Position numbers and translations under genes: made by a program
The notes under the pieces: model-generated
Database searches by the model: none
What the model was told of the DNA's origin: nothing
The model's input: only the letters and a program-made list of their open reading frames with translations
Part shown: piece after piece, positions 14,759-21,750 of the stretch
How positions within the stretch are numbered: the first letter of the stretch is position 1
Layout: every line of letters starts with the position of its first letter
Origin: Victivallis lenta
GTDB taxonomy: Bacteria > Verrucomicrobiota > Lentisphaeria > Victivallales > Victivallaceae
Assembly (NCBI RefSeq): GCF_009695545.1
Contig: NZ_VUNS01000034.1
Span: 1 to 57,034 of the forward strand
Direction of reading: 5' to 3'
DNA: 57,034 nucleotides

Positions 14759-15220
14759 GTGGCTCAGCAAATCACTTATTCGGCAAAGTTCAAGCGCGAT
14801 TATGTCGCGGCGTCGGCGGTTGTGATCTTCATCGCGATCGTTCTAGCTGAAATCGCGCTCGCCATCAGCATACCAGCCTACCTGAAGCGGGAAAACGCCA
14901 TGGCGCTTGAGGTCCGCAGGCTGCAGCTGCTCGATTCGTTCGACGGCGCGCGCGGCATGTCGGAGAAGCTGAAACCCAAAGGCGGCGAGACGGCGGAGCT
15001 GGAAGCCCGGCTGGTCGCCTGGGGACTCAACTCGCTTGCTCCCTATCTGCGGGAACACTCCGGCGCTCTGACTTCCGACGAGATCGCCGGTCTGCAGGCT
15101 TCGGTGACGGAGTTCACCCGGATCATGACCCGCCTGCGCGACCAGGGCGGATTCTGCCGCGAGCAGACGCTCGACACCGCGATCTATCTGGAGCCGCTTC
15201 TGCCGGAGGAGGCCCGATGA
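14759..15220 (+). CDS. Single-pass membrane protein of unknown function in the LPS operon
   Basis: A 153-aa protein with a GTG start preceded by AAGAGG. It has one membrane helix at about residues 19-40 (the segment containing VIFIAIVLAEIALAISI), preceded by a short charged N-terminus (KFKRDY), then a helical domain of about 110 residues rich in Leu, Glu and Arg that should face the periplasm. I do not recognise a family. It has the topology of LptC (N-terminal helix plus periplasmic domain), but it looks helical rather than beta-jellyroll, so I do not call it LptC. Its TGA overlaps the ATG of the heptose-kinase gene (ATGA), so it is translationally coupled to envelope sugar synthesis. Confidence 0.75.
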   Translation: MAQQITYSAKFKRDYVAASAVVIFIAIVLAEIALAISIPAYLKRENAMALEVRRLQLLDSFDGARGMSEKLKPKGGETAELEARLVAWGLNSLAPYLREHSGALTSDEIAGLQASVTEFTRIMTRLRDQGGFCREQTLDTAIYLEPLLPEEAR

Positions 15221-16224: not shown

Positions 16225-16271
16225 AACCGGGCGGCCGCTTCCCCGCGGCTCCCAAGATAAGGATGGAATTC

Positions 16272-17009
16272 ATGAGTCAGGATCGGGTTGCGGTGGTGAT
16301 TCCATCGCGTTACGCGAGTTCGCGTTTTCCCGGCAAGCCGCTGGCGATGCTGTGCGGCAAACCGATGGTTCAGCATGTGTATGAGAAGGCGGCGGCGTCG
16401 ACGGCGGATCTGACCGTGGTCGCGACCGACCACCAGGCGATCTACGACACGGTCGCCGGGTTCGGCGGCCGGGCGGTCATGACGGCGGAGTCGCATCCGT
16501 CCGGGACGGACCGGATCGCCGAGGCGGTTTCCCGTCTCGGTGAGAAAATCGATATCGTCGTCAACGTCCAGGGGGACGAACCGCTGATTCCGACTTCGGT
16601 TATCGATGAGCTGATCGTCATCATGAAGAGCGACCCCGCCATCGAAATGGCGACCGTGGCCGTGCCGGGCGACCGGAACGGCATGACCGAAAACAATGTC
16701 AAGGTCGTGTTCGGCAGCGACCGCTTCGCACTTTATTTCAGCCGTTCGATGATTCCGTTCCTGCGCAGCGGCGGGGAGGAGGCGCCGGTCTATCTGCACT
16801 GGGGCATTTACGCGTACCGCAAAAGCGCGCTCGACCGGTTCGTTTCGCTGCCGCCGGGGAGGCTCGAAAACTGCGAAAAACTCGAACAGCTTCGGGCGCT
16901 GGAGAACGGAATCCGGATCTACGTGCTTCTTTCGGAGCTCGAGAGCATCGGAATCGACACGCCCGAAGACCTGATCCGGGCGGAAAAGAAACTGCGGGAG
17001 GGCAGGTGA
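16272..17009 (+). CDS. kdsB: 3-deoxy-manno-octulosonate cytidylyltransferase (CMP-Kdo synthetase)
   Basis: A 245-aa cytoplasmic enzyme that activates Kdo with CTP to CMP-Kdo for lipid A glycosylation. The family signature VVIPSRYASSRFPGKPL lies at the start, then VQGDEPLI around residue 100, HWGIYAYRK, and LEQLRALENG near the end. The length is normal. I chose the ATG at 16272 (MSQDRVAVV) because AAGGA is 8 nt upstream; the in-frame ATG at 16263 falls inside that site. kdsA begins 1 nt after its stop. Confidence 0.96.
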   Translation: MSQDRVAVVIPSRYASSRFPGKPLAMLCGKPMVQHVYEKAAASTADLTVVATDHQAIYDTVAGFGGRAVMTAESHPSGTDRIAEAVSRLGEKIDIVVNVQGDEPLIPTSVIDELIVIMKSDPAIEMATVAVPGDRNGMTENNVKVVFGSDRFALYFSRSMIPFLRSGGEEAPVYLHWGIYAYRKSALDRFVSLPPGRLENCEKLEQLRALENGIRIYVLLSELESIGIDTPEDLIRAEKKLREGR

Positions 17010-17010
17010 C

Positions 17011-17823
17011 ATGGAAGAGGTGAAGGTCGGCAATGTCGTTTTCGGCGGCGGCGAACTGGTTCTGATCGGCGGCCCGTGCCAGGCGGAGAGCCTTGAGCTC
17101 TGCTGCGAGGTGGCCGGATATCTGCAGGGACTCTGCGCCGAAGCCGGCGTACAATATGTGTTCAAAGCCTCCTATGACAAGGCGAACCGCTCGAGTGAGG
17201 GCGGCGTGCGGGGGCCGGGGCTCAAGCGGGGACTCGAAATCCTGGCGGCGGTGAAGCAGCGCTACGGCGTGCCGGTCATCACCGACGTGCATGAGACGGT
17301 GGAGGTCCCGAAGGTGGCGGAGGTCGCCGACATCCTCCAGATTCCGGCCTTCCTCTGCCGGCAGACCGATCTGCTGCATGCGGCCGGGCGGAGCGGCCGG
17401 GCGGTCAACATCAAAAAGGGGCAGTTCATGGCGCCGGAGGATATGCGGGGGGCCATTGAAAAGGTCCGGGCGACCGGCAACGACAAGCTGCTGCTGACCG
17501 AGCGCGGCACGACGTTCGGCTACCATAACCTTGTGGTCGACATGCGTTCGCTGGTGACCATGCGTTCGTTCGGCGTGCCGGTGGTGTTCGACGCGACGCA
17601 TTCGGTTCAGCTTCCGGGCGGACTCGGCAATGCGTCCGGCGGCCGCCGGGAATTCGTTTTCCCGCTGGCCCGGGCGGCGGCGGCGGTCGGGATCGACGCG
17701 CTGTTCACGGAGGTGCATCCGCGTCCGGACGAAGCCTTTTCGGACGGGCCGAATTCGCTCGATTTCAATCAGGTCCGGGAAATCTTAACTGTGGTGAAAC
17801 AGCTTCATGACGCGATCCGATAA
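17011..17823 (+). CDS. kdsA: 3-deoxy-8-phosphooctulonate synthase
   Basis: A 270-aa cytoplasmic enzyme condensing arabinose-5-phosphate with phosphoenolpyruvate to Kdo-8-phosphate. Landmarks are LIGGPCQAES near residue 20, FKASYDKANRSS, the TDVHE segment, NIKKGQFMAP, TERGTTFGYHNLVVDMR, DATHSVQLPGG and TEVHPRPDEAFSDGPN. The length is typical. It overlaps kdsC by 17 nt, so the two are coupled. Confidence 0.97.
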   Translation: MEEVKVGNVVFGGGELVLIGGPCQAESLELCCEVAGYLQGLCAEAGVQYVFKASYDKANRSSEGGVRGPGLKRGLEILAAVKQRYGVPVITDVHETVEVPKVAEVADILQIPAFLCRQTDLLHAAGRSGRAVNIKKGQFMAPEDMRGAIEKVRATGNDKLLLTERGTTFGYHNLVVDMRSLVTMRSFGVPVVFDATHSVQLPGGLGNASGGRREFVFPLARAAAAVGIDALFTEVHPRPDEAFSDGPNSLDFNQVREILTVVKQLHDAIR

Positions 17824-18325
17824 ACTCAGAAAAATCAAGGCGGTCGTTCTCGATGTCGACGGGGTGCTGACCGACGGCCGCGCCGGATTCGGCGGTGAGA
17901 ACGAAATCAAGTTTTTCCATCTGCGCGACGGACACTGGATGAAGCTGGCCATCCGGGCCGGGCTGAAAGTCGGGTTGCTGTCGGGCCGCGGGGCGAAGGC
18001 GAACCGGCAGCGGGCCGGAGAGCTCGGACTGTCGTTCTGCTATGAGAACTGCAAGGACAAGCTCGAGGCGTTCGAAAAAATGCTCGCCGAGCAGGGGCTT
18101 TCGGCCGAAGAGTGCCTTTATATGGGCGATGACGTCATCGATATGCCGCCCATGCGCCGCGCCGGTGTCGGGGTGGTTGTGGCCGACGGTGTGCCGGAGC
18201 TCGACGAAGTCGCTCTCTGGCGGACGGAAACGCCGGGCGGACACGGCGCCGTGGCGGAGGTGATCCGGATTCTTCTCGCCGGGCAGGATAAGCTCGACGG
18301 TGTTCTCGAACGTTACCGCCGCTGA
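17807..18325 (+). CDS. kdsC: 3-deoxy-manno-octulosonate-8-phosphatase
   Basis: A 172-aa HAD-superfamily phosphatase that dephosphorylates Kdo-8-phosphate to Kdo. The catalytic aspartates are Asp16 and Asp18 in VVLDVDGVLTDG, followed by LLSGRGAK (motif II), the CKDKLEAF lysine and MGDDVIDMPPM (motif IV). The C-terminal TPGGHGAVAEV segment matches the KdsC tail. Its start lies within the end of kdsA (17-nt overlap). Confidence 0.95.
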   Translation: MTRSDKLRKIKAVVLDVDGVLTDGRAGFGGENEIKFFHLRDGHWMKLAIRAGLKVGLLSGRGAKANRQRAGELGLSFCYENCKDKLEAFEKMLAEQGLSAEECLYMGDDVIDMPPMRRAGVGVVVADGVPELDEVALWRTETPGGHGAVAEVIRILLAGQDKLDGVLERYRR

Positions 18326-18343: not shown

Positions 18344-20890
18344 ATGAAAAAAATCGTAATGGCGATGGCGGTCGGGGCGATTGCGCTTGCGGCGTGGGGC
18401 GCGGCCGGCGGCCTTGAAGAGCTGCGCGGACTGGTGCTGGCCCACGCGAAGCTGCCGGTCTACAACAAGCAGACGCTGCAGATCATGGTCTTCTGCAACG
18501 AGGTCGAACGGCAGGGCAGGATGATGGTGGGCACCGATGCGGTGCTCGACCTGATCCGGCGCGATGCGGATGTCGATTCGATCCGCGACGGCTGGGGGCT
18601 CAGGCCGTATCCGCTCGATGCGAAGCTGCCGGAGGTGCTGAAGTTCTGGAGCGACCGGCTTTACAGCGACGGCGTCATCATTACCGCCCGGGCGGACGTG
18701 GATCAGGAGACCCGCATGGCGTACGGCGACGAACCGGTGTTTTTCCGCTCTCCGCTGCTGGATTTGAACGGCATCGGGTTCGAGGCGGATTTCGACAAGC
18801 GGACCGTTCTCGTCAAGGAGGATGTGAATATCGTGCTGCGCATGCAGTCGAGCGACCCTCGGGAGCTGCTGGCGCCGGGGGCGAAGCAGCCGGAGAAATA
18901 CGAATTCGTCCGCGCTGTCTCCGACTCGATGCGGATCGACATGGCTAACAACCAGATTCTGCTGGTCGGCAATGTCGTGGTTGACGAGGACCGTTCGATC
19001 GTGAACTGCGACCGCATGACCATCTTCCTGAATCGGAAGGATGACGCGGCCTTGAAGGCGGCCAACGACCGGGGCGAACTCGGCAGCGGCTCGGATATGG
19101 GCGGTGTGAGCCGGGTGCTCTGCGACGGCAACGTCGTCGTTACGCGGAAGCTGTCGCCGGAGGAGATCGTCGAGAGCGGGGAGCAGAAGGCGTTCGCGGA
19201 CCACCTGGTCTACGACCTCGCCATGGGAACGGTCACGCTGACCGGCGACCGGCAGCTGCCGGTCGTGAAGCGCGGCCGGGAATCGATGTCCGGCAGCACC
19301 ATGACGCTGCATCGCGAGGAGCAGCGTGCGGTCATCAACGGAAAAAGCAAAGTCATTGTGATTCAGCCGCCGGAGAAGCCGGGCGACAAAGAGAATTTCA
19401 TCACGGTTCATTCCGACGACGCCGAGTTCGATTATCTGCGCAACTACGGTGATTTCAAAGGCAACGTTGTGATCGACGATCCGCGCATGCAGCTGAAGTG
19501 TGCGAACATGAGAATCGACCTGAAAGAGCTGCCCGAGGCGAAGGCGGCGCTGCCGAAGGAGGCGGAGTCGACGCTCTCCGGCATGCCCTCTTTCGATGCC
19601 GGCAGCAAGCGGGAGCTGGACCGCGTCACCTGCACCGGCGGCGTCGAAGTCGTCCGCCGCGATGAGATGGGCAGGCTTCTTCCCGGGGAGCGCGGCTCCT
19701 CGAAGGAGGCGGTTTTCGATTATATGACCCGGATCATCACGATGACCGGGGACAATCCGACTCTGACGCGCAATGCCGATTCGCTCTCCGGCCGCGAACT
19801 GCAGATCTGGGTCGATGGGGAGCGCATCTGCGCCCGGGACGGCAGCAAGGTGGTGCTCGGCGCCCGTTCGGCCGGTCCGGCGCAGTCCGCCGCGGCCGCG
19901 GCGGGAGCGGGGCAGACCGTGATCCTTTCGGATTCCAGCGATCTGAACTACGGCGGGAACCTGCTGACCTTCAACGATAATGTGAAGGTCGACGACGCCC
20001 GGCTCAAGCTCGATTGCGACCGGATGGAGATCTTCCTGCTGGAGCAGAATCCGGCCGGGGCAAAAGAGAAGAAAAGCGCGGCGGATGTGCTCGAACTCGA
20101 AAACGGCGGCGACCGCAGTTTGTCGAAGGTGGTCTGCACCGGCCGGGTTCACGCGGTTGATCCGGGCAGCGATCTGCGCAGCGAGAAGCTGACGCTGACC
20201 TTCCGCCCGCAGGCTCCGGGAGCGCCTCCGGGCATGTTCCAGTCGGACGGCACCGAACTGGCTCTGATCGAAGCGGACGGCAAACTGGTGGTCGTCAACA
20301 CGCCCGAGCCGGGAGAGCAGCAGCAGGCTGCCGCCACCGGAATCGGCCGGAATCTGGGCGGACTCATGAAGGGCGGCTCGGCCGGGCCGCGCACGATCAG
20401 CGCCGACCGCGGCCGGGTCGATTTCACGAAACATCTTTCGGAGTTTCACGGGAATGTCCATGTGCGGGACGACGAGAACTCGCTGAAGTGCGACGATATG
20501 TATCTCTATGCCGGGAAGCCCGCGGCAGGCTCCGGCAAAGAGGGAGAGGCGCCGAAGGCGGGGATCGACGACGACCCGTTCGCGCTGCCCGGTGCGGAGA
20601 CGGTCCCGGCCCGGATCAGCCTGACCGATACGCTGGACCTGAAGCGGGTGCTCTGTCAGAACAACGTGCTCTTCGTCCGGCGCACGTCGGACGGGCAGGT
20701 TCAGCGCGCCGGCGGCCACCAGGCCGACTACGTCGTGGCGGACCGCGTCATGGTCGTGACCGGCGAACCCGGCAAACAGCCGTGGATGAGCGCCGAAGGG
20801 CGGCGCATGTACGCTGACCGGATCATCGTCAACGTCGAGAATGAAACCATGAACGCCGTCGGAAATACCTCGACGGTTGCGGAGAATTAG
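18344..20890 (+). CDS. Giant multi-repeat LptA/OstA-like periplasmic protein
   Basis: An 848-aa protein with a signal peptide (MKKIVMAMAVGAIALAAWG). After a unique N-terminal region (to about residue 190) it contains two alternating beta-strand repeat types. Type A has the pattern GNVxVxDxxxxxxCDxMxI at about residues 205, 370, 540 and 700. Type B starts xVxCxGxVxVxR at about 258, 430, 610 and 768. Both resemble OstA/LptA-fold units. Ordinary LptA is about 185 aa and polymerises to bridge the periplasm, so this protein may be a prebuilt bridge in one chain. Its place between kdsC and lptB supports a role in LPS transport. No separate lptC is seen nearby. The family assignment is by pattern and context. 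Confidence 0.78.
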   Translation: MKKIVMAMAVGAIALAAWGAAGGLEELRGLVLAHAKLPVYNKQTLQIMVFCNEVERQGRMMVGTDAVLDLIRRDADVDSIRDGWGLRPYPLDAKLPEVLKFWSDRLYSDGVIITARADVDQETRMAYGDEPVFFRSPLLDLNGIGFEADFDKRTVLVKEDVNIVLRMQSSDPRELLAPGAKQPEKYEFVRAVSDSMRIDMANNQILLVGNVVVDEDRSIVNCDRMTIFLNRKDDAALKAANDRGELGSGSDMGGVSRVLCDGNVVVTRKLSPEEIVESGEQKAFADHLVYDLAMGTVTLTGDRQLPVVKRGRESMSGSTMTLHREEQRAVINGKSKVIVIQPPEKPGDKENFITVHSDDAEFDYLRNYGDFKGNVVIDDPRMQLKCANMRIDLKELPEAKAALPKEAESTLSGMPSFDAGSKRELDRVTCTGGVEVVRRDEMGRLLPGERGSSKEAVFDYMTRIITMTGDNPTLTRNADSLSGRELQIWVDGERICARDGSKVVLGARSAGPAQSAAAAAGAGQTVILSDSSDLNYGGNLLTFNDNVKVDDARLKLDCDRMEIFLLEQNPAGAKEKKSAADVLELENGGDRSLSKVVCTGRVHAVDPGSDLRSEKLTLTFRPQAPGAPPGMFQSDGTELALIEADGKLVVVNTPEPGEQQQAAATGIGRNLGGLMKGGSAGPRTISADRGRVDFTKHLSEFHGNVHVRDDENSLKCDDMYLYAGKPAAGSGKEGEAPKAGIDDDPFALPGAETVPARISLTDTLDLKRVLCQNNVLFVRRTSDGQVQRAGGHQADYVVADRVMVVTGEPGKQPWMSAEGRRMYADRIIVNVENETMNAVGNTSTVAEN

Positions 20891-20949: not shown

Positions 20950-21006
20950 ACTTGTGCAGGCACACGGATGAGTCCTGTTTCGGAGGCGAGAGGAATCAAC
21001 AGCATT

Positions 21007-21750
21007 ATGAGTGAAAACGAAAGCGGCGAAGCGCTGGTCAGGGCGGACCACCTGGCGAAGAGTTATCATGGCCGCAAGGTGGTCGACGACGTCTCGATTT
21101 CGGTGCGCGCCGGTGAAGTCGTCGGTCTTCTGGGGCCGAACGGCGCGGGCAAGACGACGAGTTTTTATATGGTCATGGGGCTGATCCGCCCCGACTCCGG
21201 CGATATCCGTTTCCGCGATGTGGACATCACGCATATGCCGATGTACAAGCGGGCCCGCATGGGGATGGGCTATCTGGCGCAGGAGCCGTCGATCTTCCGC
21301 AAACTGACCGTCGAGCAGAACATCATGGCGATTCTCGAGACGCTGGCGATCTCGTCGGCGGAGCGGAAGAAGCGCTGCCGGGAGCTGCTTGACGAATTGG
21401 AGCTGACCCGGCTGGCGAAGCAGAAGGCGATGACGCTTTCGGGCGGGGAGCGGCGGCGGCTCGAGATCACCCGGGCGCTGGTCACGAATCCGTCATTCAT
21501 CATGCTTGACGAGCCGTTCAGCGGCGTCGACCCGCTGGCGGTCTACGATGTCCAGCAGATCATTCTGCAGCTCAAGGAGCGCAATCTCGGGATTCTGATC
21601 ACTGACCACAACGTGCGTGAAACGCTCTCCGTGGTCGATCGCGCCTACCTGATGTGCCAGGGGAAAATCCTGGTGGAAGGCTCCAGCGATTTTCTGGTCA
21701 ACGACGAGCGGGCGCGCGAGATTTATCTCGGTCCGCAGTTTTCGATGTAG
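21007..21750 (+). CDS. lptB: LPS export ABC transporter ATPase
   Basis: A 247-aa ABC ATPase that powers extraction of LPS from the inner membrane with LptFG. The Walker A motif is GPNGAGKTT, the Q-loop lies in YLAQEPSIFRKLTVEQN (typical of LptB), the signature is LSGGERRRLEI, Walker B is IMLDEPFSGVDP, and the switch His is in ITDHNVRETL. I chose the ATG at 21007, which follows GGAGGCGAGAGGA; a longer in-frame start at 20968 adds 13 unlikely residues. lptF and lptG are not in the window. Confidence 0.95.
   Translation: MSENESGEALVRADHLAKSYHGRKVVDDVSISVRAGEVVGLLGPNGAGKTTSFYMVMGLIRPDSGDIRFRDVDITHMPMYKRARMGMGYLAQEPSIFRKLTVEQNIMAILETLAISSAERKKRCRELLDELELTRLAKQKAMTLSGGERRRLEITRALVTNPSFIMLDEPFSGVDPLAVYDVQQIILQLKERNLGILITDHNVRETLSVVDRAYLMCQGKILVEGSSDFLVNDERAREIYLGPQFSM

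Follow-up and report, generated by a model that had tools for sequence, protein, structure and literature searches.

The LPS bridge of Escherichia coli is built from separate proteins in unknown number, and the count of LptA molecules per bridge has been called unknown or debated (PMC6164715, PMC7347655, PMC10094684, PMC10863985). LptA itself is soluble and periplasmic, with a single domain and about 185 aa. In contrast, a bacterium of the Victivallis lineage carries its bridge parts in one long protein, in which an LptC domain and four LptA units share 848 aa. The parts of this chain are known; their natural concatenation into a single polypeptide was without report in the open literature searched, most subscription papers lying outside that search, which is weak evidence of novelty.

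Results

The window, by which we mean the whole stretch of 57,034 nucleotides analysed (contig NZ_VUNS01000034.1 of Victivallis lenta), carries on its + strand an 848-aa ORF at positions 18344-20890, assigned by Pfam, NCBIfam and family profiles to a single-chain LptC-LptA4 protein. A previous reading made from the sequence only had placed this ORF between kdsC and lptB, and the profile matches of its neighbours bear this out. The setting is a kds-lpt operon containing, also on the + strand, kdsB (CMP-Kdo synthetase, 16263-17009, PF02348), kdsA (Kdo-8-phosphate synthase, 17011-17823, PF00793), kdsC (Kdo-8-phosphate phosphatase, 17807-18325, TIGR01670 with 119.8 bits for a cut-off of 106.95) and lptB (ATPase of the LPS exporter, 20968-21750, TIGR04406 with 370 bits for a cut-off of 240). 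Upstream of the PfkB-type sugar kinase of the operon, positions 14759-15220 of the window (+ strand) encode a 153-aa protein with an N-terminal hydrophobic segment and without match in Pfam or NCBIfam. Its relatives occupy the same position in most loci of f1, the family of the window, and also in f4 and f63 loci; they were not seen in f2, f3, f5 or f7 loci. Plasmid records yielded no match.

The sequence-only reading saw no lptC beside the gene. The idea of a missing lptC was rejected, as an LptC domain is fused at the N-terminus of the chain itself (residues 1 to about 186, 18344-18901, + strand), which makes the case stronger than had been proposed. PF06835 matched with 39.6 bits (cut-off 21, E 5e-10, best stretch residues 112-163) and TIGR04409 with 41.7 bits (cut-off 38), while a family LptC profile with this protein among its members gave 220.7 bits. 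This region aligned over its full length with the standalone LptC of sister families at 21-29% identity, and the RS..D..G.GF motif of the latter is conserved in it, in the form RSPxxDxxGxGFxAD. No match was obtained when the LptC profile was run against PDB sequences. The hydrophobic segment at the N-terminus (residues 1-22, 18344-18409, + strand) has its hydrophobic residues at 4-22 and a best 19-residue Kyte-Doolittle mean of 1.96, like that of standalone LptC in sister families. Judged from its sequence, the 848-aa chain is likely exported, and this stretch could be either a cleaved signal peptide or an LptC-type membrane anchor.

The remainder of the chain is made of LptA. TIGR03002 matched with 88.6 bits (cut-off 71.7) and PF03968 (LptA/LptD_N) with 112 bits (E 2e-32) in four stretches. 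Two alternating repeat types, each present four times, had been noticed before and were recovered here, with starts at residues 193, 357, 529 and 686 for one type and 255, 425, 593 and 766 for the other. The reading of these repeats as about eight OstA-type units was nevertheless rejected. One motif makes up the N-terminal half and the other the C-terminal half of a single LptA jellyroll, so that the chain contains four LptA units and not eight, a count on which the repeats, a model of unit 1 and an independent profile agree. All on the + strand, unit 1 covers residues 189-348 (18908-19387), unit 2 residues 353-516 (19400-19891), unit 3 residues 525-673 (19916-20362) and unit 4 residues 682-848 (20387-20887). 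The four repeats are 21-36% identical among themselves. When a profile was derived exclusively from 11 sister-family LptA proteins of one unit each, it matched residues 190-337, 354-503, 526-612 and 684-844 with E values of 2e-35 to 1e-14, the best E value among 1000 shuffles being 8.5e-4; the unit profile matched LptA structures with E 2e-13. The second half of unit 3 is shortened and diverged, and this unit could form a hinge or a weak link. A full-length AlphaFold2 model obtained from two sequences had a pLDDT of 33 and was discarded. Unit 1, modelled from an alignment of eight units taken from the chain and its 70%-identical relative L008, reached a pLDDT of 76 and a pTM of 0.69. The model superposed on residues 33-154 of E. 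coli LptA (2r1a_C, Z 15.9 over 118 residues), indicating that one unit corresponds to one LptA, and the beta-jellyroll expected from structure prediction was thus obtained for one unit.

Searching the 99.9% complete genome with sensitive unit and LptC profiles detected LptA units exactly four times and LptC once, each time within this ORF. No second LptA unit gene, no LptC beyond the chain and hence none of the ordinary lptA or lptC genes that the earlier reading had suggested looking for were detected by these profiles. LptB, LptF, LptG and LpxC are present in the genome, together with an LptD candidate of 879 aa that scored 21.8 bits with PF19838, just under the cut-off of 22.5. PF04453 (LptD), a profile that also misses most non-proteobacterial controls, gave no match, and the candidate had none in two further searches, one of them against PDB sequences. 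Of 60 genomes of the order, 54 have the candidate, nearly all as a single gene, and its size is similar whether the bridge is fused or unfused, which suggests that the change is confined to LptC-LptA. Taken together, the presence of these partners and the lack of any other detected LptA or LptC indicate from sequence that the periplasmic Lpt bridge most likely consists of this chain only, in the pre-assembled form LptC-LptA4. The proposal of a single-chain LptA concatemer in place of an oligomerised LPS bridge is therefore supported by the domains and by the genome-wide search. That the machine carries a glycolipid other than LPS seems very improbable to us, given that the chain gene shares its operon with kdsA, kdsB and kdsC and that lpxC is in the genome.

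We then compared gene layout and unit number among relatives. In f2 (outside genus g24), f3, f5, f7 and f63, a separate lptC (mostly about 165-255 aa) and a one-unit lptA (about 200-290 aa) are found, and the separate genes of sister families follow the order kdsC-lptC-lptA-lptB, in the same slot as the chain. In f1, all complete chains examined were LptC-LptAn fusions. Their unit span was 590-700 residues in 25 of 38 chains (about four units) and 534-570 residues in 11 (four calls, some shortened), the extremes being one chain of 424 residues (about three units) and one of 792 (five); G006 has five units. Because unit calls came from merged HMMER pieces, totals of five in L050, L083, L098, L099 and L102, whose spans are 598-635 residues, are probably four split matches. 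In loci L046 and L055 of the f1 genus g3, lptB does not lie directly downstream of the fused gene, and L046 has a partial lptB a few kb from it, on the other strand.

Other families presented intermediate layouts. Genus g24 of f2 has LptC-LptA3 fusions with a separate one-unit LptA, an unfused lptC with LptA3 and LptA (L077, L120 and L121), and a simple lptC with lptA (G073 and G120). Among its loci L065 (G120), L066, L067, L076, L077, L078, L120 and L121, nearly every step on the way from separate genes to a fusion is represented. Both L077 and L078 come from G314, a genome bin in which the kds-lpt operon is present twice, once with the fusion and once without it, probably reflecting two strains. 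In f6, the fused chain of G126 has at least four units, and G291 (L110) has lptC followed by two separate tandem lptA genes, which likely correspond, in unfused form, to the long G126 chain. The chain of G126 (L071, 2612-5401) contains extra C-terminal-half repeats in its third unit, where a Pfam Tae4 match is likely spurious. In f4, G114 has lptC and a two-unit LptA. Outside this class, the 727-aa chain of G004 (L124) combines an LptC domain above the Pfam cut-off with three LptD_N domains, and G136 (L125) has three LptD_N domains in one chain.

On a tree of the operon genes, in which deep branches are weakly supported and f1 is not strictly one clade, the fused state required five changes and the multi-unit state four. 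In the unit tree, units from g24 clustered with the single LptA of that genus; of the four f6 units, three clustered with the single LptA of f63. A common origin of the f1 and g24 multi-unit chains was rejected by an AU test (p 0.0003), performed on a quick tree as one comparison, with a grouping chosen after the first unit tree was seen. The trees and this test indicate that amplification and fusion arose more than once; from the sequences, amplification is assigned to several lineages, namely f1 (mostly about four units), one f2 genus (three units plus one separate) and f6 (four or more).

Units 1, 3 and 4 of f1 formed largely position-specific groups in the unit tree, indicating that the unit order is old and has been maintained. 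This bears on the possibility that the exported chain is a polyprotein, cleaved at the domain borders to release LptC and individual LptA molecules; these would assemble in the manner of E. coli, and all that the fusion would do is fix the ratio of the parts. The parts are indeed expressed separately in sister families, and stretches between units are of low complexity in places, such as AGPAQSAAAAAGAG ahead of unit 3. However, interchangeable subunits would not need a position-specific sequence across f1, and a consistently shortened unit position would be needless in a pool of them. We consider such processing improbable.

Discussion

We think it likely that the uncut chain forms the whole periplasmic LPS bridge, running from the inner-membrane exporter to the outer-membrane translocon as LptC followed by four LptA jellyrolls. 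The LptC domain would dock on LptB2FG, LPS leaving LptC would be pushed along a groove that continues without a break across units 1 to 4, and unit 4 would pass it to the N-terminal jellyroll of LptD. Such a bridge would be preassembled, its parts fixed in order and number, instead of being assembled from free LptA. The variation of unit number within f1, the shortened unit 3 and the LptD candidate lying under the Pfam cut-off were counted against this single-bridge explanation.

One published set of estimates puts an LptA at about 4 nm and a bridge with one LptA at about 15 nm (PMC10863985); a second source has 21 nm for the E. coli periplasm and 16 nm for a one-LptA machine (PMC5575297). By arithmetic from the first set, a straight LptC-A4-D bridge would measure about 27 nm. 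The chain may be a bridge of encoded fixed length, LptA having been amplified or fused to about four units separately in several lineages because four units span the periplasm; it would then act as a ruler of about 27 nm, a permanent rod and not a dynamic chain of free LptA. We advance this only tentatively: four units in total recur, but two, three, about 3.5 and five also occur, so that a strict ruler is a hypothesis. Alternatively, unit number may set no length, the chain being flexible or overlong with only some units in the bridge at once, or chains joining end to end. Close relatives do differ: g24 has either 3+1 units or, in G073 and G120, just one separate LptA, while f4 has two units and G006 five. 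Moreover, E. coli can partially grow with monomeric LptA (PMC5575297). On the other hand, lineages that amplified LptA independently have come again to a total of about four units, and we regard this alternative as somewhat unlikely. It is compatible with the domain reading, and disputes only the step to a fixed length.

As a single-chain bridge, the protein would be a natural case in which the gene itself tells the number of parts. With a defined unit number and relatives that have 2, 3, 3+1, 4 and 5 units, the question of LptA number becomes one of unit number versus periplasm width, and also one of solving a single polypeptide, for which the chain is a ready construct for structural work. 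Another suggestion to come from it is that, for LPS export, a bridge that is physical and permanent is enough.

The chain shares with LptC (PF06835, TIGR04409) an N-terminal domain with the LptC C-terminal motif and a hydrophobic N-terminus. However, its LptC domain has no free C-terminus and continues straight into LptA unit 1, whereas the standalone LptC of sister families ends with a charged tail. The OstA-like proteins of Bacteroidetes (PF13100) are also long and jellyroll-based, but the chain has no match to this Pfam profile. The chains of G004 and G136, found elsewhere in the phylum, likewise have several LptA-type domains in a single chain encoded ahead of lptB; they differ in belonging to another class and in having three units, all strongly diverged. 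No description of these chains was met in the literature searched. With E. coli LptA (YhbN; PDB 2r19, 2r1a) and Pseudomonas LptH (4uu4), the chain shares units that match the LptA profile and, for the modelled unit 1, the LptA fold, as well as a gene position adjoining lptB. E. coli LptA, however, is one unit and one soluble, oligomerising protein, whereas the chain consists of four unlike units attached to LptC.
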